64,000 nucleotides of DNA. Source: Burkholderiales bacterium (lineage in GTDB: Bacteria; Pseudomonadota; Gammaproteobacteria; Burkholderiales; Burkholderiaceae_E). A model generated the notes under the pieces. It saw nothing but the letters and a program-made list of their open reading frames with translations. It searched no databases and had not been told where the DNA came from. Below, piece by piece: positions 8,944 through 23,871 of this stretch (the first letter of the stretch is position 1; every line of letters starts with the position of its first letter). The translations under genes were made by a program, and so were the position numbers. The stretch is from assembly GCA_029977705.1 (NCBI GenBank), contig JAPOKJ010000007.1, positions 1-64,000 of the forward strand. The letters run 5' to 3'.

Positions 8944-9669
8944 TCAGATGGTCAGTGAACCGACACTGGCGCCGCCACAGACATAAAGCGTCTGGCCGGT
9001 GACAAAGCCGTTGTCGGCATCGGCAAAAAAGGCGACGGCGCGCGCCACATCCTGCGGCTCGCCCAGGCGCTGCACCGGAATGCCACGTGCAATGGCCGCC
9101 TCGCGATCACTGCCCGCGGGCACCACCTCGTGGAAGATGCGCGTCCCGCGGATCGGTCCCGGCGCCACCACATTGACGGTGATGCCATCGCCCGCCAGCT
9201 CGAGCGCCCAGGTGCGGGCCAGTCCGAGCATGCCGGCCTTGGTCGCCGAGTAGGCGCTGCGGGTCTGCAGGCCGAGCGCCGCACGCGAGGAGATGAAGAT
9301 CACGCGTCCGAAACGGGCCTGCTTCATCGCCGGCAGGGCGGCCTGCAGGAATAGCGTCAGGCAGCCCCAGTGCAGGCGCGCCAGCGCTTCGTAGTCGTCC
9401 GTCTGAACGTCCGCAAGCAAGGCCGGTCGCATCGCGCCAGCGCTGTGGACCAGGGTATCGATGCGATGCTGCGCCGACAATTGCGCCGCCAGCGCGGCAC
9501 AGGCCTTCATGTCGCCCAGATCGATGATGTGCGAGTTCAGGGCCGGGTGACGGATCGGGACCGCCTCGAGCGCCAGACCGATCACCGCATGACCGCGTGC
9601 CAGCAGGTCCTGGGTCACCGCCAGGCCAATGCCGGAACTGGCGCCGGTCACAAGGGCGATCCGGTTCAT
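8944..9669 (-). CDS. Short-chain dehydrogenase/reductase (FabG-like)
   Basis: This is a classical SDR of 241 residues from ATG 9669. It has the Rossmann motif TGASSGIG, 'HSAG' at the NNAG position, the catalytic Ser in 'FISSRA' and YSATK, and a C-terminal 'GFVTGQTLYVCGGASVG' typical of 3-oxoacyl reductase-like SDRs. Alternative starts at 9690 and 9696 would overlap the preceding cyclase gene. It lies in the CoA-ligase/thiolase-like operon, so oxidation or reduction of a hydroxyacyl or alcohol intermediate is likely; the substrate is unknown. Confidence 0.88.
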   Translation of the reverse strand: MNRIALVTGASSGIGLAVTQDLLARGHAVIGLALEAVPIRHPALNSHIIDLGDMKACAALAAQLSAQHRIDTLVHSAGAMRPALLADVQTDDYEALARLHWGCLTLFLQAALPAMKQARFGRVIFISSRAALGLQTRSAYSATKAGMLGLARTWALELAGDGITVNVVAPGPIRGTRIFHEVVPAGSDREAAIARGIPVQRLGEPQDVARAVAFFADADNGFVTGQTLYVCGGASVGSLTI

Positions 9670-9679
9670 GGTGCGGTGC

Positions 9680-10540
<861 letters not shown>

Positions 10541-10542
10541 GG

Positions 10543-11910
10543 TCAAGCTCCGAGCTCTTTTTCGAGGACCTTGGGATTGTCCTGCCAGCGGGCCAGCCAC
10601 TCCTGGGCAACGTCGCCGGGGTAGACATCCTCGACGCCATCGCGCAAGGCCTTGACGATGGCCGAGGCCAGGGCCGCAGGCGCCAGCTTGGGCGGTGGCA
10701 TCTGCTGGTTCCACTCGTCGTCGATCGGCCCCGGAAACAGGTTGATGACACGAATGCCAGCCTGACGCATCTCGGCACGCAGGCACTGGGACAGGGACAG
10801 CGCCGCAGCCTTGGACGCCGAGTAGGTGCCGTGGGCCGGGAAATTGCTCAGGGCATATACCGACAGCACATTGACCCAGGCGCAGGCATTGTGGGCGCCA
10901 TCGGCCGCACGTCCCTTGAGGGCCGGGCCGAAGGCCTGCGCCAGACGCAGCAGCCCGAGATAGTTGACGTCCATCTCGGCGCGGGCCACATCAGTGCCGC
11001 GTCGGGCCGAGATGCCATAGGTGCGATGGACCTCGGCGGTGTTGATGACGATATCGACCTTGCCACCGATCTCGGCCGCCAGTTCATTGACCGAACGCTC
11101 ATCGGTCAGGTCCAGGGGCACCCAGCTGACCGGCTTGAGCCGGTCGAGCTGATCCATGCCGGGAAAGCGCTTCCAGGGCTCGGCCTGACCGGCCCAGACG
11201 ATGTCGGCACCAGCATCGACGCAGGCCCTGACCACCGCCTGTCCGAGGGCCGACTTGGCATCACTGACCAGCACCTTGCGGTAACGCGGATCACAGGTCA
11301 TTTCACGCAATTGGGGATCATCGGCCATCAGATGGACCTTCTCGTCAGACGTGTGGGGAGGCATGGCGATGAGCACCGCCTGGCCGGATTTATCGAGACG
11401 CGCAATCAGGCGCACCGCCTGCGGCCGGGCATCGGCAGGGGCGGCGACGCCGGCATGCACATGGCAGATGAGGGCGGGACCGGCGCCGGTATCGGAGGAG
11501 GCGCCGGCTGCCGGGTCGTCGGCCAGCTGCACCATGCCCAGCCGCCAGGGCAGCCGTTCACGGTAGTAAAGGTCATTGCTGTGGTGGAGCACCGTATCGC
11601 TGAGCAGCCAGCCCCGGCCCTCATGGGGCGTCCACTTCAGGCGCAACGACAGGCAGCGATGACAGGCCTCGCGGGGCGGGTACTGCCAGGCCTGGCAGTC
11701 CTGACAACGCTGCAAGGCCAGCGCGCCGAGCGCGGCATGCGCCGTCAGCCCCAGGGCGATGCGGCCACGCTGTCCGGGTGGCAGGGTCGCCTGACGGGTA
11801 CGCAGGACCGGATTCTTGCGCGGCGCACGCGCCAGCGGCACCAACGGCTCGCCCGAGGGCGACAGGTGTTCCTGCGGCCAGGCACTGCGGGGGGGTGGGG
11901 GCATGCTCAT
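10543..11910 (-). CDS. Fusion of DUF35 zinc-ribbon/OB domain and SDR domain
   Basis: This 455-residue protein has two modules. Residues about 55-180 form a DUF35 (ChsH2-like) acyl-CoA-associated domain: a rubredoxin-like zinc ribbon with C69, C72, C83 and C86, then an OB-fold-like region. Residues about 210-440 form an SDR domain with the YSASK catalytic pair (Y363, K367). The SDR cofactor loop is unusual: VSDAKSALGQA replaces TGxxxGxG, and INTAEV replaces NNAG, so cofactor binding may be altered. DUF35 proteins usually partner with thiolase-like enzymes, and a thiolase-like gene lies just upstream (19 nt gap). The reaction is unknown. Confidence 0.85.
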   Translation of the reverse strand: MSMPPPPRSAWPQEHLSPSGEPLVPLARAPRKNPVLRTRQATLPPGQRGRIALGLTAHAALGALALQRCQDCQAWQYPPREACHRCLSLRLKWTPHEGRGWLLSDTVLHHSNDLYYRERLPWRLGMVQLADDPAAGASSDTGAGPALICHVHAGVAAPADARPQAVRLIARLDKSGQAVLIAMPPHTSDEKVHLMADDPQLREMTCDPRYRKVLVSDAKSALGQAVVRACVDAGADIVWAGQAEPWKRFPGMDQLDRLKPVSWVPLDLTDERSVNELAAEIGGKVDIVINTAEVHRTYGISARRGTDVARAEMDVNYLGLLRLAQAFGPALKGRAADGAHNACAWVNVLSVYALSNFPAHGTYSASKAAALSLSQCLRAEMRQAGIRVINLFPGPIDDEWNQQMPPPKLAPAALASAIVKALRDGVEDVYPGDVAQEWLARWQDNPKVLEKELGA

Positions 11911-11929: not shown

Positions 11930-13102
11930 TCATGCCCTTGCCCCGGTCGCCATCACGGCGCCACTGGTACAGACACAGCGGTCGTAGGTGACCATGCCGA
12001 AGCCGCTGACCGCACCGACCTGCACCTGCGGTATCTGGCGGGCGCCGGCCTGGCCGCAGAGCTGGCGGATCGCCTCGACCACGTTCAGGAATCCACCGGA
12101 GGCACCCGCCTGTCCGACCGACAACTGCCCTCCCGAGGTGTTGACCGGGAAGCTGCCGCCGTAGTGCAGCTCGTGCCTGCGCACGAACTCCTTGCCCTGC
12201 CCGATCGGTGCAAAGCCCATGCCCTCCAGCTGCATCATCACGATCACCGGGTAATCGTCATAGGCCTGCAGAAAGCCCATGTCCTGCGGGCCGAGTCCGG
12301 CCTGCCCGTACAGTTGCGCCTGGTCCATCACCCAGCCGCCGCGCACCATGATCGGGTCCTCGGCATAGGCGTTGTGGCGCTCGATCGTGCCCAGGATGCG
12401 CGCCCAGGGCAGCTTCATGCGACGGGCCCGTTCCTCGCTCATCACCAGGAAGGCGTCGGCACCGGCACAGGGCATCACGCAGTCGAACAGATGGATGGGA
12501 TCGGCCACGGCCCGCGCTTGCAGGTACTCCTCGAGCGTGAGCGGCTTCCTGAAAAGGGCCACCGGATTTTTCAGGGCATTGGTGCGCTGGGCGACCGCGA
12601 TCTTGCCAAAGTCGGCCCGCGTCGTGCCGGTGCTGCGCATGTAGTGCGAGGTGATGAAGGCAAACATCGAGTTCGGACCACCGGAGCCATACGGGTAGGT
12701 GGCATCGCGGGCGAAATTGCTGAAGCTGCCCAGCGACATGCGGAAGGAATCCACCGCATTGGTATCGGCGCCGACACAGGCAATGATCTCGGCATCGCCT
12801 GCCTGGATGGCACGCGCCGCACGCCGCATCGCGACGATGCCTGAGGCACCGCCCATGGGAATGTGATCGAGCCAGCGCGGTGCCATGCCGATGTGCTGGG
12901 TCACGCCCACCGCCGTGTCCGGGGTCAGCGAAAAACTCGAGATGGTCAGGCCGTCGATCTCGTCCTTGCGCAGGCCCGAGGCATCGAGCAGGGCCTTGAG
13001 GGCGCGGGCCACGAACCAGTGCGCACCGCGCGTCGAGTAGCGGACATAGGGCACCGATACGGGTACCGCCACCGCCACGCCCTCGTAGCCGGCACGCGCC
13101 AT
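11930..13102 (-). CDS. Thiolase-superfamily protein (SCP-x/Ltp2-like) without canonical catalytic residues
   Basis: This 390-residue protein has a thiolase fold, start ATG 13102 set one base after the CoA-ligase stop. At the usual nucleophile position the sequence is MGGASG (83-88), with Gly where thiolases have Cys. The C-terminal GHP motif region reads 'NTSGGQLSVGQAGASGG', with Gln for the catalytic His. A Cys remains near the C-terminus (CVCTSG). This matches the non-thiolytic branch that includes lipid-transfer-like aldolases such as Ltp2, which act with DUF35 partners. The adjacent gene encodes a DUF35 domain. A carbon-carbon cleavage or condensation on a CoA ester is inferred. Confidence 0.82.
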   Translation of the reverse strand: MARAGYEGVAVAVPVSVPYVRYSTRGAHWFVARALKALLDASGLRKDEIDGLTISSFSLTPDTAVGVTQHIGMAPRWLDHIPMGGASGIVAMRRAARAIQAGDAEIIACVGADTNAVDSFRMSLGSFSNFARDATYPYGSGGPNSMFAFITSHYMRSTGTTRADFGKIAVAQRTNALKNPVALFRKPLTLEEYLQARAVADPIHLFDCVMPCAGADAFLVMSEERARRMKLPWARILGTIERHNAYAEDPIMVRGGWVMDQAQLYGQAGLGPQDMGFLQAYDDYPVIVMMQLEGMGFAPIGQGKEFVRRHELHYGGSFPVNTSGGQLSVGQAGASGGFLNVVEAIRQLCGQAGARQIPQVQVGAVSGFGMVTYDRCVCTSGAVMATGARA

Positions 13103-13103
13103 C

Positions 13104-14825
13104 TCAGAGCGCCTCGCGCTTCTTGAGCGCACGGGTATCGAAACAGTCGGGCTGGCCGGGCAGCGCGGCAGCGATCTGCTTCATCTGTCCGCGCTGGATC
13201 TTGTTGGTCAGGGTCAGGGGCAGGGCCTTCACGAAGGCGACCCAGCCCGGTGCCTTGAAGTAGGCCAGCTCGGACAGGCAGTGGCGCGTCAGCACTTCGG
13301 CCAGGGCCGCCGCGGGCAGGCCTTCCGGGCCGCCCTGCAACCAGTCGTCCTTGAGCACGACACAGGCCAGCACCTCGTCGCCACGAACCGGGTCTGGCGT
13401 CGCCGCCACAGCCACCTCCCTGACGGCCGGGTGGCGGCGCAGCACGGTCTCGACCTCGACTGCGGCAATGTTCTCGCCGGAGCGGCGGATGACATTCTTC
13501 TTGCGATCAATGAAGTACAGATAGCCCTGCTCATCGGCCTGCACCACATCACCGGTATGGAACCAGCCGCCCTGCCAGGCCTCGGCGGTGGCCGCCTCGT
13601 CCTTCAGGTAGTGCCTGAAAAAACCGCGTGCCGGGTTTTCGCCGGCGGCCCGCACCAGCATCTGGCCGGGCGTGCCCACCGCGACATCCTGCCCCTCATC
13701 ATCGACCAGGCGCACCTGCACCCGGGGATCGGGCTTGCCGAAACAGGCCTTGCCGATGTGGCGCGGTTCCTGGTGCGCAATCACGCAGGCCCCGACCCCG
13801 GTTTCGGTCATCGCCCAGGCCTCGATCAGCGGAAAGCCGAAGCGTTCCTCGAAGGGTGCGTGCAGGCGCTTGTCGACCCCCGCGCCGAATCCGAAACGTA
13901 CCTGATGATCACGATCGGACGCCTGCGCGGCATCGGTCATCAGCATCGAGGGCATCACGCCCAGGTAATGGACGATGGTGGCCCGCGACTGACGCACGCT
14001 CTGCCACCAGGTGGCGGGATGGAACCGGTCCAGCTGGATGATGCAACCGCCCGACAGCAGCATCGCCATCGTCGAGCAGGCCAGGGCATTCATGTGGTTC
14101 AGGGGCAGCGGGGTGATCAGGCGCTCGCAGCCCTCACCCACCGTGCACAGGCCACCCAGGGCCAGGTACCAGCCGCCGGCAAACAGGAAGTATTCATTGC
14201 TCAGCACGCAGCCCTTGGGCTGTCCCGTGGTGCCGCTGGTGTAGAGCAACGCGCACTCGGTGTCCAGGCCCGGCATGGAAGGCCGACCGATGGAGCCGGC
14301 ATGGCCCTGACCCAGCTGCGGCAGGGGATCGCCGATCCCGATCACCGGCACCTGGCGTCCAGCCCGGCCGGCCGCCTCGCGCAGCAGGCCCTGGTGGCTC
14401 TCCAGTGCCAGGGCCATGCGGATCTCGCTGTGACCGATCAGGTAGGTCAGCTCGGCCATGCGCATCTCGGCGCTGATCGGCACGATCGACACGCCCAGCT
14501 GGTTCAGCGCCAGCCAGTGCTCCAGGAACACCGGCCGGTTCTCGAACAGCAGCCCGACCCGGTCACCATGCTGCAAGCCGCAGGCATAGTAGGACTCGGA
14601 CAGGTGCCAGATGCGCTCGGACAACTGGCGGTAGCTCATCGATCCTGCGTGGATGCCGTAGGCGGCGGCCGTCTCGGGCAGGACCTCGAACACCGGCTGA
14701 TCCGGAAAGTGGTTCGCCGCGTCGGCGAAACCGGCATAGACGGTTCCGAAGGTCAGGGCCCACTCGATCGGGTTGTATTCGGCCTGGCCGGTGCCGTCGG
14801 GCGGGGTTTGGGATTGCGCTTGCAT
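13104..14825 (-). CDS. AMP-forming acyl-CoA synthetase
   Basis: This 573-residue ANL-superfamily enzyme activates a carboxylic acid with ATP and CoA. It has the P-loop YTSGTTGQPKG at about residue 195, 'EAWAMTETG' for the A5 motif, 'GWFHTGDVVQ' for A7 and 'RKKNVIRRSGENIAAVEVE' for A8. The terminal catalytic Lys lies in 'LTNKIQRGQ'. It is the first gene of the minus-strand catabolic series and is divergent from the P-loop/ParB-like gene, 72 nt apart. The acid activated is not predictable; crotonobetaine/carnitine-CoA ligase-like and aryl-acid ligases share this layout. Confidence 0.92.
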   Translation of the reverse strand: MQAQSQTPPDGTGQAEYNPIEWALTFGTVYAGFADAANHFPDQPVFEVLPETAAAYGIHAGSMSYRQLSERIWHLSESYYACGLQHGDRVGLLFENRPVFLEHWLALNQLGVSIVPISAEMRMAELTYLIGHSEIRMALALESHQGLLREAAGRAGRQVPVIGIGDPLPQLGQGHAGSIGRPSMPGLDTECALLYTSGTTGQPKGCVLSNEYFLFAGGWYLALGGLCTVGEGCERLITPLPLNHMNALACSTMAMLLSGGCIIQLDRFHPATWWQSVRQSRATIVHYLGVMPSMLMTDAAQASDRDHQVRFGFGAGVDKRLHAPFEERFGFPLIEAWAMTETGVGACVIAHQEPRHIGKACFGKPDPRVQVRLVDDEGQDVAVGTPGQMLVRAAGENPARGFFRHYLKDEAATAEAWQGGWFHTGDVVQADEQGYLYFIDRKKNVIRRSGENIAAVEVETVLRRHPAVREVAVAATPDPVRGDEVLACVVLKDDWLQGGPEGLPAAALAEVLTRHCLSELAYFKAPGWVAFVKALPLTLTNKIQRGQMKQIAAALPGQPDCFDTRALKKREAL

Positions 14826-14897: not shown

Positions 14898-15800
14898 ATG
14901 AAACTGCAGATCACGATGACTGGCGAGCCCGGTTGCGGCAAGACCACGATCGCCCGCCTGGTCACCGAGCGCCTGGGCTCGCAATACCTGTCCACCGGTG
15001 CCATCCAGCGCGAATTGGCCGAATCCATGGGCATGACGACGCTGGCGCTGAACAAGCTGGCCGAGACCGACCCGACCATCGACGAGAAGATCGATGCGCA
15101 TACCCGCTCGCTGGCGGGCTCGCGCAAGCTGGTGGTCGACTCGCGGGTGGCCTGGCGCTTTCTGCCGCACTCGCTCAAGGTCTTCCTGGTCTGCCCGCCG
15201 GCGGTGGCGGCGCAACGCGTCCACGCCCAGAACCGCAAGGACGAAAGCTACGCCGACCGTCAGCATGCGGTCGAGCAATTGCGCCAGCGCTTCGAGAGCG
15301 AGAAGGCCCGCTTCGCGCGCTACTACGGCGCCTCGCTGGGCAATCTTCGCAACTACGACCTGGTCATCGATACCTCGCTGGCCACGCCGGAACAGATTGC
15401 CGACAAGGTCTGTGACATGGCATTGGCCGATCAGGCCTTCAAGGGCATGCCGAAGCTTTTCCTGTGCCCCCAGAACCTGTTGCCAACCAGGCATGTGCGC
15501 GGCTTCACCACGCCGGAGCTCAATCACCTGCTCGACCACTTCGGTGAGGACCATGTCCGTGCCGGCGACATCGAGGCCGTCGATGTCTGTCGCGTGGGCG
15601 GCCAGTGGGCCATCCTGAACGGACACAAACGGGTCGCCCTGGCCTTGCAGCTGAAGGTGCCCCTGATTCCCGGCCGCCTGCTGGGCCAGGACGACGAGAT
15701 CCTGGACTACGGCGTGACCGCGCGCTCGCTGTTCGAGCACGAGGTCGTGAACGAGCATGTGGCGCAGTGGGAGAGCACCTTCGGCTTCAATTTTCACTGA
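14898..15800 (+). CDS. P-loop cytidylate-kinase-like domain fused to a ParB-like domain
   Basis: The 300-residue protein opens with a Walker A loop GEPGCGKT (9-16) and a nucleoside-monophosphate-kinase-like region: 'STGAIQREL', 'VVDSRVAW', 'KVFLVCP', and an Arg-rich lid to about residue 175. Residues about 185-260 resemble the ParB/sulfiredoxin-like fold: 'VCRVGGQWAILNGHKR' matches the usual (I/L)(D/N)GHHR signature, followed by 'VALALQL' and 'VPLIP'. Some ParB-like proteins are kinases or ATPases, so the pair may form a small-molecule kinase. It has no operon partner on the plus strand, and its end overlaps the convergent hydrolase gene by 7 nt. Function unknown. Confidence 0.75.
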   Translation: MKLQITMTGEPGCGKTTIARLVTERLGSQYLSTGAIQRELAESMGMTTLALNKLAETDPTIDEKIDAHTRSLAGSRKLVVDSRVAWRFLPHSLKVFLVCPPAVAAQRVHAQNRKDESYADRQHAVEQLRQRFESEKARFARYYGASLGNLRNYDLVIDTSLATPEQIADKVCDMALADQAFKGMPKLFLCPQNLLPTRHVRGFTTPELNHLLDHFGEDHVRAGDIEAVDVCRVGGQWAILNGHKRVALALQLKVPLIPGRLLGQDDEILDYGVTARSLFEHEVVNEHVAQWESTFGFNFH

Positions 15801-16594
15801 GCCGCTCCGAGGCTGTCCCGGGCCTCGAGCCAGGTCCTCACCCGCGCCAGGAAGGCCTCGCGCTGCTGCACCATCACCCAGTGACCACAGGGCAGGCCGA
15901 GGGCATCCGAACCCGGTGCAGCCCGCAGCCGGACCAGCCAGGACTTGCTGTGGAACATGAAGGGCTTGCGCTGGCCATAGAGGTAGAGCATCGGGCAGGA
16001 AGGCTGGAAATCCACCGCCTCGCGAAAGCCGCCGGTCCAGGCCATGACATAGGGATAGTTCTGCTGGCGCGCGATGCGCTCGCGCGGCACCGGCACCTGC
16101 ATCAGGGCGGCCAGGCGGCGTGACATCGCATCGCCCAGGGGACCCAGGCCACTGGCCAGGGCCAGCCAGCCCTGGTAGGCCAGGATGCCCAGGCGCGCCT
16201 TCAGTGGCAGTTGCTCGCGATAGGCCCGTGAGAAGGTATCCCCGACATCGACTCCGACGATTCCGGCCACCCGCTGCGGATGGCGCGCCGCGTACTGGTA
16301 GCCAAAGACGCAGCCCCAGTCATGCAGCACCAGGGTCACCGGCCGATCGGGACTGACAGTATCGACGATCCGGGAGAGCAGCGCGAGCATGGCCGGCAGC
16401 CGGGTCGGACGCGGCGCCTGGCCCACATCGAAGCCGGGCAGGGTAAAACGCACACAGCGAAAACGATCGCGCAGGTGGGCCACCGTGTCGTCCCACAGGG
16501 ACAGGGTGTCTGGCCAGCCATGCACCATGACCAGGGTGGGTCCCTGGCCTTCAACGCGCACCTCGATGCCCTCGACCTGCAGCGGCGGGTTCAT
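15794..16594 (-). CDS. Alpha/beta hydrolase with Asp nucleophile motif
   Basis: This 266-residue hydrolase has the oxyanion segment HGWPD near the N-terminus and HDWG at the nucleophile elbow. An Asp at this position is seen in haloalkane dehalogenases and epoxide hydrolases. A C-terminal 'GHW' supplies the His. Its start overlaps the stop of the preceding IOR beta gene (ATGA), so it is the last gene of the dioxygenase/IOR operon. An epoxide-hydrolase or dehalogenase-like step on the pathway is plausible; ring-cleavage (C-C) hydrolases normally use Ser, arguing against that role. Confidence 0.85.
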   Translation of the reverse strand: MNPPLQVEGIEVRVEGQGPTLVMVHGWPDTLSLWDDTVAHLRDRFRCVRFTLPGFDVGQAPRPTRLPAMLALLSRIVDTVSPDRPVTLVLHDWGCVFGYQYAARHPQRVAGIVGVDVGDTFSRAYREQLPLKARLGILAYQGWLALASGLGPLGDAMSRRLAALMQVPVPRERIARQQNYPYVMAWTGGFREAVDFQPSCPMLYLYGQRKPFMFHSKSWLVRLRAAPGSDALGLPCGHWVMVQQREAFLARVRTWLEARDSLGAAQ

Positions 16595-18159
16595 GAACCT
16601 GTCAGCTCCTGTCCCGTCAACCCCTGCGCCGTCAACCCCTGCGCCGTCAACCCCTGCGCCGCCAGTGCTTGGCCCAGGGCCGTACCCTCTTCATCGGCCA
16701 GCGCCGCCTGCATCAGGGTGCGCAGCCGGTGCGCGCCATCGGGCGCCGCACGCAGCGCACCGGCGGCCGCCAGCACGATCGCAAAATGGGCACGTCCCCG
16801 CTGCTGGGTGTCGCTGTACCCCTTGATCAGGCGCTGCGCATCGGCCAGGGCATGGGCCAGCGCCGGGTTGTCACGGGCCAGCATGCAAACCGTGTCGATC
16901 CAGCCCTGCATGGCCTGCGACTCATGGGCAAAGCGCAGGCTGCCGCGACGCAGCGGCCGCGCCGCCGCGAGCAGGTACAGCTGCAGGAAACCGCGCAGGC
17001 TGCTGCTCTCGAGCACCTTGCCCTCACCCAGCAGGGGACGCAGCAAGGCCTGGGCCAGCCGGCTGCGCAGCAGAAAACGCCCTAGGCCCGCCGGCAGGCT
17101 GTCGGCGATCTCCTCGATGCGCGGATGCAGGTATTCGCGAATCTCGAGCATCTGGCCCTGCTCCAGACGTACCTCCTGCGCCACCTTGCGGAAACGGGTC
17201 GCGCGGATCTTCAGGTCTGCCACCCGGACGATGTCCTCATAGGACATCCACAGCGCCAGGCCCCGGGCCAGGGACTCGAGCAGCTCCTCATGGGGCGACA
17301 ACTGCGGCCGCAGCCCGGACAGGCGTTGCAGGTAATCGGCCGCATAGGCTTCGTCCTGGTAGTCGGCCAACTTGAGTACGCCTTCAACCAGGGTGGCGAT
17401 CGCCGACGCCGGAAACTGGCGCACCTGGGCAGCCAGTGGCTGAAGGCGTGGCCCCAGCTTTGCCAGCGCCGCCTCAGGCGAGAGCGCTGGCACGGTGCCC
17501 TGTGCGGCAGGCCCGGGTTGCGCCTGCTGGTAAGCGGCTTCGAAGGCCGCCAGGCTGCTGGCCACACCGACGCCTGAATCGCGCACTGCCGACTCGAACT
17601 GGGCCTTGACGAAAGGCAGCACGCCGCTGGCGGCTATCGCCCCGAACAGGCAGGCTCCCACCACCGAGCCCTTGTCCTCGGCCAGGCGCGCGAAATCGGC
17701 CCCGATGAACTGCCGGGCCTGCCGGCGGCAGGCTTGCAGGAGGGCATCGGCATCGACCCGGCCATCGCCGAGCGCGATCTTCTCGGTCATCGCATAGACC
17801 CGGTGGGTCGAGGCGATCAGGGTGGTCAGCTGCGGCGTCACCAGGCCGCGTTGCAGGGCGCGCCCCGCCTCCATCAGCTCCGAGGCCACCACCAGGTCGA
17901 CCTCTCCCGGCACCGGCATCAGGCTGAGCACGGGATGCCGCCCCCGGGGATCGGCAGCCACGCACTCGACGTAGTAGATGGTGGCACCGGTGCGCTGGGC
18001 CACGCCCGGCACAGAGGTGGTCTGTGCCACGAAGCCGTGGGCCTCGGCAAGATGCACCAGCCAGTCGGCCAGCACGCCACCGCCCTCCCCGCCCATCGCC
18101 AGGATGGCGATCCGGTACAGGCGCGGTGCGGATGCCCCGTTCGAGGCAAGCGTGCTCAT
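16591..18159 (-). CDS. iorB: Indolepyruvate:ferredoxin oxidoreductase, beta-type subunit with C-terminal extension
   Basis: Residues 1-200 form the gamma/beta 2-oxoacid:ferredoxin oxidoreductase domain: 'IAILAMGGEGGGVLADWLV', 'RTGATIYYVE' and 'VDLVVASELMEAGRAL'. The remaining 300 residues are a helical extension seen in proteobacterial versions (DUF6537-like). The 522-residue protein starts at ATG 18159, overlapping the iorA stop by 4 nt. Together with IorA it would convert an aryl-pyruvate or similar 2-oxo acid to the acyl-CoA. The C-terminus ends in repeated LTAQG units coded by a 15-nt tandem repeat. Confidence 0.88.
   Translation of the reverse strand: MSTLASNGASAPRLYRIAILAMGGEGGGVLADWLVHLAEAHGFVAQTTSVPGVAQRTGATIYYVECVAADPRGRHPVLSLMPVPGEVDLVVASELMEAGRALQRGLVTPQLTTLIASTHRVYAMTEKIALGDGRVDADALLQACRRQARQFIGADFARLAEDKGSVVGACLFGAIAASGVLPFVKAQFESAVRDSGVGVASSLAAFEAAYQQAQPGPAAQGTVPALSPEAALAKLGPRLQPLAAQVRQFPASAIATLVEGVLKLADYQDEAYAADYLQRLSGLRPQLSPHEELLESLARGLALWMSYEDIVRVADLKIRATRFRKVAQEVRLEQGQMLEIREYLHPRIEEIADSLPAGLGRFLLRSRLAQALLRPLLGEGKVLESSSLRGFLQLYLLAAARPLRRGSLRFAHESQAMQGWIDTVCMLARDNPALAHALADAQRLIKGYSDTQQRGRAHFAIVLAAAGALRAAPDGAHRLRTLMQAALADEEGTALGQALAAQGLTAQGLTAQGLTGQELTGS
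16601..16660. repeat. 15-nt in-frame tandem repeat at the 3' end of iorB
   Basis: Three perfect copies of GTCAACCCCTGCGCC lie at 16616-16630, 16631-16645 and 16646-16660, preceded by a degenerate copy at 16601-16615. In the protein they give LTAQG/LTGQE pentapeptides just before the stop, so copy-number changes would keep the frame. Confidence 0.9.
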
Positions 18160-20354
18160 GCCTGCAGGCCCGCCAGGCGCCGATCGATGCGGGCCTGCAA
18201 CCAGCCGGTGACGGCACTGCGCAGGCGCTGCCGGAAGCGATCCCAGCGGCCCGGATTGTGAATGATGCTGGCCTTGTAGAACGAGGGGCACAGCACTGCG
18301 GTCTGCGAGGCCTCGCCACACAGGCCGCAGCCGACGCAACTGTCGAGCACGGTGGTGACCGGATCCCGTCGCAGCGGGTCCGGATTGTCCTTGATGCTCA
18401 GCGAGGGGCAACCCGACAACCGGATGCAGGCGTGATCCCCGGTGCAGGTCTCGGCATCGACGCCGAAGCGCTCGCGCACCACACGCTCACCGGCCGCAGC
18501 CGCCGCCTTGAACTGCGGCTTGACGCGGCGTTGCTTGTTGAGCATGCATTCGCTCTGCGCCACCAGGACCTTGGGACCCTTCTCGGGCGTGGTCAAGGCC
18601 TCCTTCAGCGTGGCCTTCATGCGCTTGAGGTCGTAGGTGCGGTCGATGCTGCGCACCCAGTTCACCCCGACGCCCTGAACCGCACGGGCAATCGGATGAT
18701 GGGTGGCCCGGATGTCGTTGCTGGCACGCGAGGACAGCAGGTCCTGACCGCCGGTGGCCGCCGAGTAACCATTGTCGACCACCACCAGCAGATGATCGCT
18801 CTTGTTGAACACCGCATTGCCCACGCCACTGGTCAGCCCGTTGTGCCAGAAGCCGCCATCCCCCATGATCGAGATGCTGCGCCGGCTCGTCTCGCCGGTA
18901 TTGAAGGCTGACGCGCCGGCCCAGCCCAGGCCATAGCCCATGGTGGTGGCCCCCAGATTGAAGGGCGGCAGGATCGAGAACAGATGGCAGCCGATGTCGG
19001 CGCTGATGTGGTGCTTGCCGATCTCGCGCTCGAGCAGCTTGATCGAGGTGAAGATGGGCCGCTCCGGGCATCCGGTGCAAAACGACGGCGGCCGGCCATG
19101 CACCAGGGTAGCCAGCGCATCGGGCGCCTGGTCGGCCGATGGCTGCGAGGCGATCGGAGGTGTGGCGATCGGTAGTGTGGCGATCGGAATGGTGCGGCGC
19201 TCGCGCTCGAGCACACCCTCGCGCTCGAAAAACGTGCGCACGCCCTTGAGCAGCACCGCGCCGGTGTACTCGCCCGCCATTGGCAGCAGGTCCTTGCCAT
19301 GCACGCGGGTCTGCAGGTCGGCCTTGCGCAGCAGGCTGTTCAGGTTCTGCTCGATGAAATCGGGCTGGCCTTCCTCCACCAGCAGCAACGCATCCTTGCC
19401 GGCGCAAAAGCGCTTGAATTCATCATCGACCAGCGGATAGGTCACGTTGAGCACGTACAGCGGCACGCGGCTGTTGCCCCACAGATCGGCCAGCCCGAGC
19501 GACTGCAGCGCGCGCAGCACGCCGTTGTACATGCCACCCTGCATCACGATGCCCAGGCGCTGCAAGCGCGCATCGGCCACATCGCCGTCAAAGAATTCAT
19601 TCAGGCCGTGGGCCTGGATGAAGCGCTGCGCGGCAGGCCAACGCATCGCCACCTTCTCCTGCTCGTGCAGATAGGTGGCCGGCGGCAGGGCAATGCGGTT
19701 GGTGTCACGGCGCGGTGCCTCAAGCGCATCCTTGAGCGTGAAGTTTGCGCGCTTGTTGGCCTTGGTGGTGAAATGGCCGTGCACGTGGCAGGCGCGGATG
19801 CGTAGCTCGAGCATGACCGGCGTGTGGCTGGCCTCGGACAGCTCAAACCCCTTCTCGACCATGCGCACGATGCTGGGCAGGTCGGGACGAGGGTCGAGCA
19901 GCCAGATCTGCGATTTCATCGCAAAGGCGTGCGAGCGCTCCTGCATGATGCTCGAGCCCTCGCCATAGTCCTCGCCCACGATGATCATGGCACCGCCCTG
20001 CACGCCACCCGAAGCCAGGTTGGCCAGGGCATCGGACGCCACATTGGTACCGACCGTGCTCTTGAAGGTGACGGCGCCACGCAGCGGGTAGTTCACCGAG
20101 GCGGCCAGCGTGGCGGCGGCCGTGGCCTCGGAGGCCGAGTGCTCGAAGCGGATGCCCAGCTCCTGCAGGATGTCGTTGGCATCGGTGAGCACATCCATGA
20201 GGTGCGAGATCGGTGCGCCCTGGTAACCGGCCACATACGAGACCCCCGACTGCAGCAAGGCCTTGGTGACCGCCAGGATGCCCTCGCCGCGGAACTGCTC
20301 GCCCTCCCCCAGCCTCAGGGATTGCACTTCCTTCTTGAATGAACGTTCTGCCAT
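18156..20354 (-). CDS. iorA: Indolepyruvate:ferredoxin oxidoreductase alpha subunit (TPP, Fe-S)
   Basis: This 732-residue protein has a pyruvate:ferredoxin oxidoreductase pyrimidine-binding N-terminal half, a thiamine-diphosphate domain ('GDGGFWHNGLTSGVGNAVFN', 'VVVDNGYSAATGGQ') and C-terminal iron-sulfur motifs. The last cluster is canonical: CVGCGLC with a distal CP. The first set is less standard (Cys spacing C-x5-C-x5-CP). It lies 21 nt after the dioxygenase beta gene and is coupled to iorB. In anaerobes the enzyme oxidises aryl-pyruvates; aerobic betaproteobacteria also carry it. A PIAT-rich insert lies in the linker between the two halves. Confidence 0.9.
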   Translation of the reverse strand: MAERSFKKEVQSLRLGEGEQFRGEGILAVTKALLQSGVSYVAGYQGAPISHLMDVLTDANDILQELGIRFEHSASEATAAATLAASVNYPLRGAVTFKSTVGTNVASDALANLASGGVQGGAMIIVGEDYGEGSSIMQERSHAFAMKSQIWLLDPRPDLPSIVRMVEKGFELSEASHTPVMLELRIRACHVHGHFTTKANKRANFTLKDALEAPRRDTNRIALPPATYLHEQEKVAMRWPAAQRFIQAHGLNEFFDGDVADARLQRLGIVMQGGMYNGVLRALQSLGLADLWGNSRVPLYVLNVTYPLVDDEFKRFCAGKDALLLVEEGQPDFIEQNLNSLLRKADLQTRVHGKDLLPMAGEYTGAVLLKGVRTFFEREGVLERERRTIPIATLPIATPPIASQPSADQAPDALATLVHGRPPSFCTGCPERPIFTSIKLLEREIGKHHISADIGCHLFSILPPFNLGATTMGYGLGWAGASAFNTGETSRRSISIMGDGGFWHNGLTSGVGNAVFNKSDHLLVVVDNGYSAATGGQDLLSSRASNDIRATHHPIARAVQGVGVNWVRSIDRTYDLKRMKATLKEALTTPEKGPKVLVAQSECMLNKQRRVKPQFKAAAAAGERVVRERFGVDAETCTGDHACIRLSGCPSLSIKDNPDPLRRDPVTTVLDSCVGCGLCGEASQTAVLCPSFYKASIIHNPGRWDRFRQRLRSAVTGWLQARIDRRLAGLQA
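19149..19193. repeat. 15-nt in-frame repeat within iorA linker
   Basis: The 9-mer GGCGATCGG recurs every 15 nt at 19149, 19164 and 19179. It encodes repeated (T/P)PIA(T/S)xP-like peptides in the linker before the FCTGCPERP segment. The unit length equals that of the repeat in the adjoining iorB, though the sequences differ. Confidence 0.8.
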
Positions 20355-20375: not shown

Positions 20376-20858
20376 CTACATGAACAGGCTGATGTTACCG
20401 AAGGCGGCATCGCAATTGACCAGATCCACCCGTTTCAGAAGGATTTTCAGTGCGCCGCCGACCTCGATCAGGTCATGGGTGGCCCAGCCGGCAAACAGCT
20501 CCTGGCGATCGATGCGTGTCTCGACATAGTGAAAGGCGGTGCGCACCTGGTACTGGCCGCCTTGCGGATCACAGCGGATCACCCGCGGCTGCTGGAGCAG
20601 GTGGTGGCTGCGGGTGGCCGGCTGCTCCGAGAAGGTCCGCGCACCCGACAGCCGCTCGATGCGGATGCCCAGCAGCAGTTTGTCCTCGTGCATCAGCGAG
20701 GTCTGCAGGCGCGCATCGGTCTGGCCGGGGGTCAGCGGCATCCAGTAGTGGCCCTGCTCATCGAACAGGTCGAGCCATTGGGCGAACTGGCGTCGATCCA
20801 GCAGGTCGGCCTCGTCGTAGACGAAATCGATCAGTTGCTGGGCAGTAAAGCCGCTCAT
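20376..20858 (-). CDS. Ring-hydroxylating dioxygenase, small (beta) subunit
   Basis: This 160-residue NTF2-like protein has the family stretch 'FVYDEADLLDRRQFAQWLDLF.EQGHYWMPL', 'RIERLSGARTFSEQPATRSHHLLQQPRV' and 'FAGWATHDLIEVGGALKILLKRVDLVNCD'. Small subunits support the alpha3beta3 hexamer and do not carry cofactor. It lies one base after the alpha-subunit stop. It confirms a two-component terminal oxygenase. Confidence 0.93.
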   Translation of the reverse strand: MSGFTAQQLIDFVYDEADLLDRRQFAQWLDLFDEQGHYWMPLTPGQTDARLQTSLMHEDKLLLGIRIERLSGARTFSEQPATRSHHLLQQPRVIRCDPQGGQYQVRTAFHYVETRIDRQELFAGWATHDLIEVGGALKILLKRVDLVNCDAAFGNISLFM

Positions 20859-20859
20859 C

Positions 20860-22209
20860 TCAGGCCTCCTTCATGCTGGCCGTGATGTACTTGACCCAGG
20901 CCTGGAACTGGTTGCGCATCTGCCATTCATTGGTGCCGTTGGTGACCTGATCGGTCAGGCCACGCTCCTCGTCGCGATACAGCCTCGCCAGGTTGACCCA
21001 GTCACGGCCGCGCGACATCAGACCCTCCTGGGCACGCTCGTACATTTCCAGATCATCGTGGCCAACCACCGAGGTCGGCGCATTGATCAGGCGGTTGTAC
21101 ATGCAGGTGCGCTCGAGCAACTGGTCGGGCGCGCCCACCAGCCGGAAGGTCCAGGACTCGACGAGGGTCCGATCGGCCGCGATCGGCTTGAACAGGCGCA
21201 GGGTCTGGATCGGACCCTTGACCATGATGTTGGGCCAGTACACGGTGTTGTGACGCACCTCGGAGAGGATCTGCACGGTCCGCTCTTCACCATAGGCCTT
21301 GACCATGGCCTCGTGATAACCGGGGATCGGTGAGTAGGCCGCATGGATCGAGTCGGCCACGCCGGTGTGGCCGTGACCGTTGCGCCAGATGCGGATGCCC
21401 ATCTTCTCGAAGAACTCGTAGGGGCTGACAAAGGGCGCGAAAAGCTCGACCGCCATCGGCTTGGGCGTGCCTGCCGGTGCCGCCTGCCAGACCTTGACCG
21501 CAGTGCCGGCCGAGGATTCGTGCGCCACCATCGGATGGCAGGTATCGGTCTGGTTGTCGACCAGCATTTTCCAGTTGCAGCGGTGCATGTAGCGCAGCAC
21601 GCCGCCGGCCACCTCGAGCCGCCCTTCCGGGGAGCGGTCGACCATGTTGTCCAGCGTCGAGAGCGAATCACCAAAAAAGTCCTCGAAGCGCTCGCCCTGC
21701 GGGTTGAGGCGGCAGAACACGAACTCGCGATAGACCTGTACGGCACCGACTCGCGCCATGCCTTGGCTGCCCTCGCAGGACTCGAAGCCGGTCTCGTCGT
21801 AGCCTTTCTTGAGGGGGATCGAGAGCAGGCTGCCATCAGTCCTGAAGGTCCAGGCGTGATAGGGGCAACGGAAGAACTTGCCGGTATTGCCGCAGATATC
21901 TCCGGCCACCCGCACGCCCTTGTGCGGGCACCGGTTGTGCAGCACGCTGATGCTGCCATCGGCCTGGCGCACCATCACGACCGGCTGGTCACCGACGGTG
22001 GTGGTGTAGAAGTCACCTGCCTTGGGCACCTGACTGGCGTGGCCGACATAGACCCAGCAGTTGGCAAACAGGTGTTCCATCTCAAGCGCAAAGACATCCG
22101 GATCGGTGTAGGTGCGTTTGTGCACCTCACGGTCGCGGACCATGTCGCGCACGTCCTGGGCGCTCCAGCGGCCGCCCGTCGCGAGCCCGGTTGCAGACGA
22201 AAGACTCAT
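20860..22209 (-). CDS. Rieske ring-hydroxylating dioxygenase, large (alpha) subunit
   Basis: The N-terminal Rieske domain has CPHKG and CPYHAW, giving the 2Cys-2His ligands of the [2Fe-2S] centre. The catalytic domain has the mononuclear iron segment 'WKMLVDNQTDTCHPMVAH', with the bridging Asp and two His ligands and Cys where many homologues have Tyr. The start ATG at 22209 (449 residues) has a GGGAGG site 5 nt upstream; a GTG at 22215 abuts that site and is less likely. The electron-transfer reductase is encoded just upstream and the small subunit just downstream. Substrate unknown, probably an aromatic acid. Confidence 0.93.
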   Translation of the reverse strand: MSLSSATGLATGGRWSAQDVRDMVRDREVHKRTYTDPDVFALEMEHLFANCWVYVGHASQVPKAGDFYTTTVGDQPVVMVRQADGSISVLHNRCPHKGVRVAGDICGNTGKFFRCPYHAWTFRTDGSLLSIPLKKGYDETGFESCEGSQGMARVGAVQVYREFVFCRLNPQGERFEDFFGDSLSTLDNMVDRSPEGRLEVAGGVLRYMHRCNWKMLVDNQTDTCHPMVAHESSAGTAVKVWQAAPAGTPKPMAVELFAPFVSPYEFFEKMGIRIWRNGHGHTGVADSIHAAYSPIPGYHEAMVKAYGEERTVQILSEVRHNTVYWPNIMVKGPIQTLRLFKPIAADRTLVESWTFRLVGAPDQLLERTCMYNRLINAPTSVVGHDDLEMYERAQEGLMSRGRDWVNLARLYRDEERGLTDQVTNGTNEWQMRNQFQAWVKYITASMKEA

Positions 22210-22245
22210 GTCCACCTCCCACTAAACATCACACGCATCATCACA

Positions 22246-23271
22246 CTAGATATCCAGCACCAGACGAGTGCCCTTGCAGCGGGACACACAGGTCTGGATC
22301 ACCTGATTGGCCTTCTTCTCGGCAGCGCTGAGCACATAGTCGCGATGGTCGGGTTCCCCCTCGAACACCGGCGCGGCGCAGACGCCGCACTCGCCGCGCT
22401 TGCAATCGAACATCGGATCCAGGCCCGCCTCGAGCATGCAGTCCAGGATGCTCTTGTCGGGCGGCACGGTCAGGGTCTTGCCCGACTGCAGCAGCACGAG
22501 TTCGAAGGCGTGATCGCCCTCCTGCACGGCAGGCGCCGAGAACAGTTCGAAATGAATGCGCGATTCATTCCAGCCCGCGCTGCGGGCACAGGCCAGCACC
22601 TGATCGAGCATGGCCTGCGGGCCGCAGACATAGAGGTGGTCCTGGGCCTGGCAAGTGGCCAGAAAGCCGGCCACATCGAACAGCCGCCCCGCCTCTGCAT
22701 CGCCATGACAGTGCAGGCGATCACCGAGCAAGGCTTGCAGGGGTTCACGATAGGCCAGCAGCCCCAGCGATCGGCCCGCATAGGCCATGCGCACCGGGCG
22801 GGCCTGGGCCAAGGCCGTGGCGGCCATGCTGATGAGGGGTGTCACCCCGATGCCGCCTGCCAGCAGCACCACCGTCCCGGGGTGGGCCTGCAGCGCAAAG
22901 TCATTGTCCGGCGCCTGCACCTGAAGCCGGTCGCCGACCTTGACCTGCCGGTGCATGAAGGCCGAGCCGCCCCGACCGGAAGCCTCCTCGCGCACGGCGA
23001 TGCAGTACGCCTGCGGCGAGCGCGTCGCAGCCGGATCGGTGCTGAAATTGATCAGGGAGTACTGCCGCCAGTCGCTGCGACCGTCGGGCAGGCGCACGGC
23101 CACCTTGACGTGAGCGCCAGCCTCGAATCCGGGCAGGTCGGCACCACCCGGACGGCGCAGATGGAACGCCCGGATCAGCGGATTGATCACCTGAACGGCC
23201 GACACCTCGAGTTCGAAAGACGGCAAGGCCGCCCCTGCCGAGCCTGCCTGACCTGCCTGCGCTGCGTCCAT
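22246..23271 (-). CDS. Dioxygenase reductase (flavin, NAD and plant-type [2Fe-2S])
   Basis: This 341-residue protein follows the phthalate-dioxygenase-reductase layout. The N-terminal flavin domain shows 'RQYSLINF', the NAD-binding domain shows 'LLAGGIGVTPLISM' and 'YVCGPQAML', and a C-terminal ferredoxin has CKRGECGVC with a distal Cys. It passes electrons from NAD(P)H to the Rieske oxygenase. It is the promoter-proximal gene of the six-gene minus-strand operon and is divergent from a MarR gene. VanB and related demethylase reductases have the same layout. Confidence 0.93.
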   Translation of the reverse strand: MDAAQAGQAGSAGAALPSFELEVSAVQVINPLIRAFHLRRPGGADLPGFEAGAHVKVAVRLPDGRSDWRQYSLINFSTDPAATRSPQAYCIAVREEASGRGGSAFMHRQVKVGDRLQVQAPDNDFALQAHPGTVVLLAGGIGVTPLISMAATALAQARPVRMAYAGRSLGLLAYREPLQALLGDRLHCHGDAEAGRLFDVAGFLATCQAQDHLYVCGPQAMLDQVLACARSAGWNESRIHFELFSAPAVQEGDHAFELVLLQSGKTLTVPPDKSILDCMLEAGLDPMFDCKRGECGVCAAPVFEGEPDHRDYVLSAAEKKANQVIQTCVSRCKGTRLVLDI

Positions 23272-23373: not shown

Positions 23374-23871
23374 ATGAGTTCGCGCCAGCGCCCGTCCACC
23401 ACCTTCGTTGATGACTATCTGGCCGCCCTTCTGGCGCAGGCCAGCCACCTGATTTCCTCCGAGTTTCACAAGGTCGTGCTGGCCAAGGGCTTCACCGTTT
23501 CGGAATGGCGCGCCTTGGCCACCCTGGCTGACGGCCCCGCCATCACCGTCACCCGCCTGGCCCGTATCGCGCTGATCAAGCAGCCCACCGCGACGCGCCT
23601 GCTCGACAGGATGGAGGCCCGCGGTCAGGTCGAGCGCATCCCTCACGAGAGCGATCGGCGGGCCACCTTGGTACGCATCACCGCCAAGGGTCGACGCACC
23701 GTCGACAGCCTGATCAAGCTGGCCAAGGAACATGAGATGCGGATCCTCGAGCCCTTCGGGCTGCAGCGGGCCGACGACTTGAAGCAGACCCTGCGCAGCA
23801 TCATCGCGATGCATGAGGGCGCCGATCCGGGGAGCAAGGCTTCAGGGCGCACCGACGGCGCGGCAAGCTGA
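23374..23871 (+). CDS. MarR-family transcriptional regulator
   Basis: This 165-residue winged-helix protein shows the MarR core: 'FTVSEWRALATLADG', recognition helix region 'IALIKQPTATRLLDRMEARGQVERI' and wing 'SDRRATLVRITAKGRRTV'. It is divergent from the dioxygenase/IOR operon and convergent with the TRAP operon. MarR proteins commonly respond to aromatic acids or their CoA esters, so it probably represses the dioxygenase operon until the substrate appears. Confidence 0.92.
   Translation: MSSRQRPSTTFVDDYLAALLAQASHLISSEFHKVVLAKGFTVSEWRALATLADGPAITVTRLARIALIKQPTATRLLDRMEARGQVERIPHESDRRATLVRITAKGRRTVDSLIKLAKEHEMRILEPFGLQRADDLKQTLRSIIAMHEGADPGSKASGRTDGAAS

Follow-up and report, generated by a model that had tools for sequence, protein, structure and literature searches.

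IadH, a conserved DUF35-SDR fusion protein of an indole-3-acetate degradation locus, and its proposed partnership with the aldolase-like protein IadG

The iad locus and the distribution of the fusion gene

The window analysed in this study is a stretch of 64,000 nucleotides from a Burkholderiales bacterium. Between positions 8944 and 23271 its genes match the order iadC-D-E-F-G-H-I-J, together with a MarR regulator, of the locus for indole-3-acetate degradation. The iad genes lie on the minus strand and encode a ferredoxin reductase (iadC, 22246..23271), the alpha subunit of a Rieske oxygenase (iadD, 20860..22215), the beta subunit of a ring-hydroxylating oxygenase (iadE, 20376..20858), an AMP-forming acyl-CoA ligase (iadF, 13104..14825), a thiolase-fold protein resembling Sal and Ltp2 (iadG, 11930..13102), the fusion protein that is our subject (iadH, 10543..11910), a member of the isatin hydrolase family (iadI, 9680..10540; PF04199, matching PDB entries 5NMP and 5NNA at E about 1e-103) and an SDR (iadJ, 8944..9696). 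The MarR gene (23374..23871, plus strand) is divergent from iadC. The fusion reading frame is IadH of this locus, an identification based on gene order and on orthologues, one of them from a Variovorax-binned contig.

In the window additional iorAB-like and hydrolase genes separate iadE from iadF. One of them, for an alpha/beta hydrolase (15794-16594, minus strand), lies outside the published iadC-K2 set. A further gene on the plus strand (14898-15800) starts just upstream of iadF in the opposite orientation; residues 4-171 of its product score above the cut-off for an archaeal-type (d)CMP kinase (TIGR02173) and its C-terminal part is unassigned.

Beyond the window, 34 proteobacterial loci carry the complete fusion (40-72% identity), and contigs of Comamonadaceae/Burkholderiales have full-length copies with 67-71% identity. 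It occurs in 17 of 74 genomes of the family to which the window belongs (two of the 17 as partial matches), in 11 of 399 genomes of the order and in 9 of 397 of the phylum. Alphaproteobacterial plasmids carry it as well (33 records, from Sulfitobacter, Roseibium, Ruegeria and others), mostly under the annotation 'SDR family NAD(P)-dependent oxidoreductase'. A survey for the same fusion in other genomes, which the preliminary description of this gene had proposed, thus returned it many times over. A frameshift, named there as grounds for refutation, and likewise a chimera were rejected because the fusion is conserved across genomes and because dN/dS values indicate purifying selection on both halves.

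Gene order around iadH is very stable. The gene iadG lies directly upstream in all 34 orthologous loci and in all six plasmid loci (40/40), so that the thiolase-like neighbour pointed out at the start accompanies the fusion in all of these loci, and iadI lies directly downstream in 33 of the 34 and five of the six. In the phylum sample of 397 genomes, IadG at 55% identity or higher is found in the nine genomes with IadH and in no other. On this adjacency and co-occurrence IadG is almost certainly partnered with IadH. Some loci show other arrangements. In one (L058, genome G018) a fast-evolving IadH (branch 2.5) is found without an iadI match and with iadJ directly downstream. Some alphaproteobacteria (loci L078, L071 and L072) have the G-H-I genes with no iadCDE match detected within the stretch fetched; hence it might be possible that the G-H-I module serves substrates other than indole-3-acetate. 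In Shinella the G-H-I genes are accompanied by genes for a LysR regulator and a CoA ligase. Sulfitobacter THAF37 has, a few genes downstream of iadJ, a pair consisting of a second thiolase-like protein and a stand-alone OB-fold protein (L079:8740-10340).

Domain architecture of IadH and the state of its SDR half

IadH is encoded by a single uninterrupted frame of 455 amino acids (10543-11910, minus strand). A Pfam search of both halves confirmed the initial assignment of a DUF35 domain, that is a zinc ribbon plus an OB fold, joined to an SDR: in the window protein it finds zf-ChsH2 at residues 58-88 (2.4e-8), OB_ChsH2_C at residues 93-152 (7.6e-4, under the family cut-off) and SDR at residues 213-403 (3.3e-23). 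OB_ChsH2_C is matched by 22 of 22 aligned members at E<=0.01 (best 3e-15), and both DUF35 parts and the SDR are matched in each of these 22 orthologues. An AlphaFold2 model built on the family alignment is confident (mean pLDDT 84.7) and shows two domains: a helix, the zinc ribbon and OB strands up to residue 183, followed by a complete SDR fold. The DUF35 half (residues 41-209; 11284..11790, minus strand) accordingly consists of a helix at 50-60, the ribbon, OB strands to about 183 and a linker. The four cysteines of the rubredoxin-like ribbon, C69, C72, C83 and C86 (C-x2-C-x10-C-x2-C), are invariant in 35 of 35 IadH proteins. The N-terminal ~25 residues of the window protein are absent from most orthologues and modelled with low confidence, so that the true start may lie further in.

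By sequence, the N-terminal half has its best PDB matches in 9MYR_B (4.5e-4) and 6OK1_B (1e-3), weak values for a single-sequence search. The premise that DUF35 proteins are normally separate small partners has known exceptions, both ChsH2 and Shy carrying MaoC domains (PMC11321319). In the phylum sample the nearest non-IadH relative of IadG (39% identity) has a YDDF motif and an adjacent separate protein of 140 amino acids, which by position and size appears, by eye, to be a stand-alone DUF35-like protein, with no CxxC pair seen. This would suggest that the fusion to the SDR was a later addition.

The SDR half comprises residues 210-455 (10546..11283, minus strand). In the window protein the cofactor loop (residues 215-223) reads VSDAKSALG in place of TGxxxGxG and residues 290-293 read NTAE in place of NNAG, exactly as first described, and YSASK is retained (Tyr363/Lys367), so that this copy has Ser, Tyr and Lys of the catalytic Ser-Tyr-Lys. 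None of the 35 IadH proteins keeps the first or the second Gly of the loop; Asp (32 proteins) or Asn (3) takes the place of the first. The Gly of NNAG has become E, D, R or A in 34. The position of the catalytic Tyr holds F in 22, Y in 6, W in 4, H in 2 and A in 1, and the catalytic Lys is lost in 9. The claim that the protein keeps the YSASK pair thus holds for the window and fails for the family: Tyr and Lys occur together in only 3 of 35 proteins including that of the window, scattered on the tree. For the same reason we rejected Tyr as a general sign of activity. Six alphaproteobacterial loci show the same motif losses in more degenerate form. A sequencing error restricted to the loop was likewise rejected because every orthologue shows the same loss.

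IadJ from the same loci served as an internal control. It keeps TGxxxGIG and YxxxK intact in 18 of 18 cases, and in the window it also has an NxAG-type motif. The nearest stand-alone SDRs (31-41% identity) have TGxxRGxG (one with SG for TG) and NNAG in 8 of 8 and the Tyr in 7 of 8; loss of the motifs therefore belongs to the fused clade. The fold of the SDR half is closest to 5U4S, with a TM score of 0.92. In 5U4S, an NADP-bound stand-alone SDR, and in a genomic relative (L092) a Leu occupies the catalytic Tyr position, hinting that loss of this Tyr could be recurrent in that branch. Residues retained in the SDR half include Asp267 (33/35), Asn290 (32/35), Ser350 and the GP at 394-395, and from those on the nucleotide side it may still bind a nucleotide, which, like the Tyr and Lys of the window copy, speaks against a pseudoenzyme.

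Both halves are under purifying selection, with dN/dS of 0.04-0.25 in the DUF35 half and 0.02-0.14 in the SDR half, the latter being the lower value in most pairs. We consider it highly implausible that the SDR half is a decaying passenger sequence without a role. Decay could have produced the variety of independent losses of the motif (F, W, H and A at the Tyr position), but selection on this half is mostly the stronger, 53 of its 246 positions show at least 95% conservation, and it is present in every orthologue found. Judged from its sequence, the SDR half looks like a pseudoenzyme that is folded and selected and presumably non-catalytic. Most likely it would be a structural, oligomerisation or ligand-holding domain and not a dehydrogenase.

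IadG and the proposed route to isatin

The best PDB matches of IadG by sequence are Sal (9MYR_A, 1.6e-50) and Ltp2 (6OK1_A, 2e-43). Both are again on top in the profile search, with 4U4E between them, and 9MYR and 6OK1 are likewise best in the fold search. The N-terminal half of IadH leads independently, if weakly, to the DUF35 chains of these two complexes. The site of the thiolase Cys reads GGA, with no Cys, in 34 of 34 IadG proteins; the His of GHP is changed to Gln and the second Cys to Gly, and the motifs GGASG, GQAG and GFG are found in 34/34 or nearly so. With catalytic Cys, GHP His and second Cys all missing, a canonical thiolase (EC 2.3.1.16) was rejected for IadG. The motif YDDY (residues 281-284) occurs in all 34 and aligns with YDCY of Sal and YDHF of Ltp2. 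Asp283 sits at the site of Cys304 in Sal, and IadG has neither known general acid, Cys304 (Sal) or Tyr344 (Ltp2). Its Gln331, found together with Gln326, aligns with the Gln that replaces Tyr344 in Sal. In Sal a Tyr serves as base and Cys304 as acid, in Ltp2 two Tyr residues serve, and the Sal substitutions C304S/A/H abolished activity (PMC12329534). The features of IadG suggest an aldolase-like protein rather than a thiolase. Against this reading stands the Asp in place of Cys304, for which there is no tested precedent.

Could IadG and IadH together work like BbsAB, as a true thiolase that attacks a beta-keto thioester like 2-aminobenzoylacetyl-CoA after ring opening and releases anthraniloyl-CoA and acetyl-CoA? 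A route of such kind was reported by Egebo et al. 1991, as cited in PMC8383072. In favour are the thiolase fold of IadG, its resemblance to BbsB, which likewise works with a DUF35 partner, and a gene for a salicylyl/anthraniloyl-CoA hydroxylase at another place in the genome. However, isatin and isatinate were detected in iad strains (PMC9613470), and the isatin hydrolase gene follows directly. The missing nucleophile Cys, the Gln for the GHP His and the Gly for the second Cys also argue against a thiolase, as does the fact that the best matches of IadG are aldolases, and we regard this route as very unlikely.

Dioxindole-3-acetate bears its hydroxyl group on the ring carbon that is beta to the carboxylate. 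As a CoA thioester it becomes a beta-hydroxyacyl-CoA whose alcohol is tertiary, the pattern that Ltp2 cleaves. Since its beta carbon is a tertiary alcohol, the ketone required by thiolysis cannot form. We infer, with a probability of about 0.72, that IadG joins the DUF35 half of IadH in an aldolase complex like Sal-Shy or Ltp2-ChsH2, which would split dioxindole-3-acetyl-CoA into isatin and acetyl-CoA by a redox-neutral retro-aldol reaction, and that the SDR half is a pseudoenzyme; this inference takes in the complex itself, its substrate, the type of cleavage, Asp283 as acid and what the SDR half does. IadF would make the CoA thioester of dioxindole-3-acetate, and the DUF35 half of IadH would bind IadG. 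With Tyr281 as putative base and Asp283 in place of Cys304 of Sal, IadG would then cleave the C-C bond beside the tertiary alcohol without redox change, and IadI would open isatin to isatinate.

For IadI, kynurenine formamidase was considered and rejected in favour of isatin hydrolase on the matches to 5NMP and 5NNA (about 1e-103). In the Roseibium aggregatum locus IadI is near-identical to the crystallised isatin hydrolase A, an enzyme (orthologue LaIHA) with measured activity, a Km of 16 uM and an isatinate complex (PMC6117287). In V. paradoxus, iadF, iadG, iadH and iadI are each required for the formation of anthranilate, and each of the four deletions accumulates C10H9NO4, assigned to dioxindole-3-acetate (PMC12633357).

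The authors of that 2025 preprint inferred a working reductase or alcohol dehydrogenase in IadH, in which the SDR half would reduce isatin to dioxindole and IadG would be a ketothiolase, which appears quite unlikely to us. Dioxindole has the formula C8H7NO2 and lies two electrons below isatin. This formula was detected in the iadI deletion and in the expression strain iadCDEFGH_JK2 (PMC12633357), and its accumulation without iadI fits a reductase in the pathway and counts against a retro-aldol step with a pseudo-SDR. The Ser, Tyr and Lys kept in the window protein, and an SDR fold whose closest relative, 5U4S, was solved with NADP, would also agree with a reductase. However, the cofactor loop is lost in 35 of 35 IadH proteins and the Tyr in 29 of 35 whereas the neighbouring SDR IadJ keeps both (18/18), the scattered Tyr defines no clade, and reduction of isatin is unnecessary because IadI acts on it next, as a hydrolase. 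The host may have reduced isatin to the C8H7NO2 that appears when iadI is missing.

The preliminary description had proposed a channelled two-step CoA-thioester reaction with the SDR as a catalytic step, which we cannot uphold given the family-wide loss of the loop, the loss of the Tyr in most members and the aldolase-like neighbour. Channelling of a different kind is conceivable. According to the preprint's authors the pathway intermediates were not seen (PMC12633357), and this would suggest a channelled F-G-H-I module. In it the SDR half could be a repurposed Rossmann domain that holds isatin itself, or CoA by its ADP end, and relays it among IadF, IadG and IadI. We offer this tentatively, as an unlikely but possible role; the idea draws on the kept adenine-side residues Asp267 and Asn290 and on a loop rewritten to [T/S][D/N][G/A][K/R][S/T]xxG.

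Beyond isatinate, the genes around the locus offer some further observations. The iorA/iorB-like pair between iadE and iadF (16591-20354, minus strand) encodes a 2-oxoacid oxidoreductase with a PRK08312-type beta subunit, and iorA- and/or iorB-like genes also occur in many of the 34 related loci. As isatinate is a 2-oxo acid (2-aminophenylglyoxylate), the pair could convert it directly to anthraniloyl-CoA. Elsewhere in the same genome (G000:C137:22529-24862) lies a salicylyl/anthraniloyl-CoA 5-hydroxylase-oxidoreductase, 74% identical to one beside the Ottowia iad locus, and it is plausible that this enzyme takes the next step after anthraniloyl-CoA.

Significance and closest known systems

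Variovorax protects plant roots with the iad locus, by which it destroys auxin, and the locus is being moved into other root-associated bacteria. Side-chain removal is its least understood step, and the published roles of IadG and IadH rest on automatic annotation. A retro-aldolase working with a DUF35-pseudo-SDR protein would account for an isatin hydrolase as the following enzyme and for a pathway that can do without a redox step here. It would also enlarge the small group of thiolase-fold aldolase complexes and correct the function currently assigned to IadG and IadH. IadH itself is a clear case of a probable dead enzyme listed in databases under the name 'SDR family NAD(P)-dependent oxidoreductase'. 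Neither DUF35-dependent aldolases nor the iad locus is new. A literature search, with subscription papers outside its scope, found no paper on a DUF35-SDR fusion, an aldolase for DOAA-CoA or a CoA-linked pseudo-SDR; within the same scope IadG-IadH was not found assigned as a DUF35-dependent aldolase complex, and the search for an inactive BbsC-type SDR subunit yielded nothing usable.

The iad locus of V. paradoxus CL014 has the same order iadCDEFGHIJ (PMC12633357, PMC9613470), and gene order and neighbours identify its IadH with that of the window. There IadH was inferred from annotation to be an alcohol dehydrogenase and IadG a ketothiolase, EC 2.3.1.16 (PMC12633357); those parts of the two papers' text that were searched name no DUF35 domain, pseudo-SDR or retro-aldol step. 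For the SDR half, together with the C-terminal region, the closest known structure is 5U4S, a PRK08264-type SDR of Burkholderia cenocepacia (33% identity). It keeps the TGxxxGxG loop, was solved with NADP and has no DUF35 fusion, and it has Leu at the Tyr position. The benzoylsuccinyl-CoA thiolase BbsAB (7PXP) shares with IadG-IadH the thiolase fold and a zinc-finger DUF35 partner, but it is a true thiolase with a Cys nucleophile and a stand-alone DUF35 subunit, and identity by fold alignment is 22%.

Ltp2-ChsH2(DUF35) (6OK1) has the same architecture as IadG-IadH and a C4 zinc ribbon. The domain fused to DUF35 in ChsH2 is without catalytic residues (a pseudo-MaoC; PMC11321319), as we propose for IadH, although it is a MaoC and not an SDR. 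Ltp2 differs from IadG in YDHF and in Tyr344 as acid, with about 28% identity. Sal-Shy of Comamonas testosteroni (9MYR; PMC12329534, PMC11321319) is the best PDB match for both IadG and the N-terminal half of IadH. In it a thiolase-fold aldolase is combined with a DUF35 domain on a larger protein whose other domain lies outside the aldolase, as we propose for IadG-IadH. Sal, like IadG, has Gly at the Cys89 site and two aligned Gln residues (Gln347/Gln352). The two systems differ in that Shy carries an active MaoC hydratase domain where IadH has a degenerate SDR, in YDCY against YDDY, in a C3H1 zinc site against the canonical C4 spacing of IadH, and in a steroid substrate as opposed to an indole-derived one.
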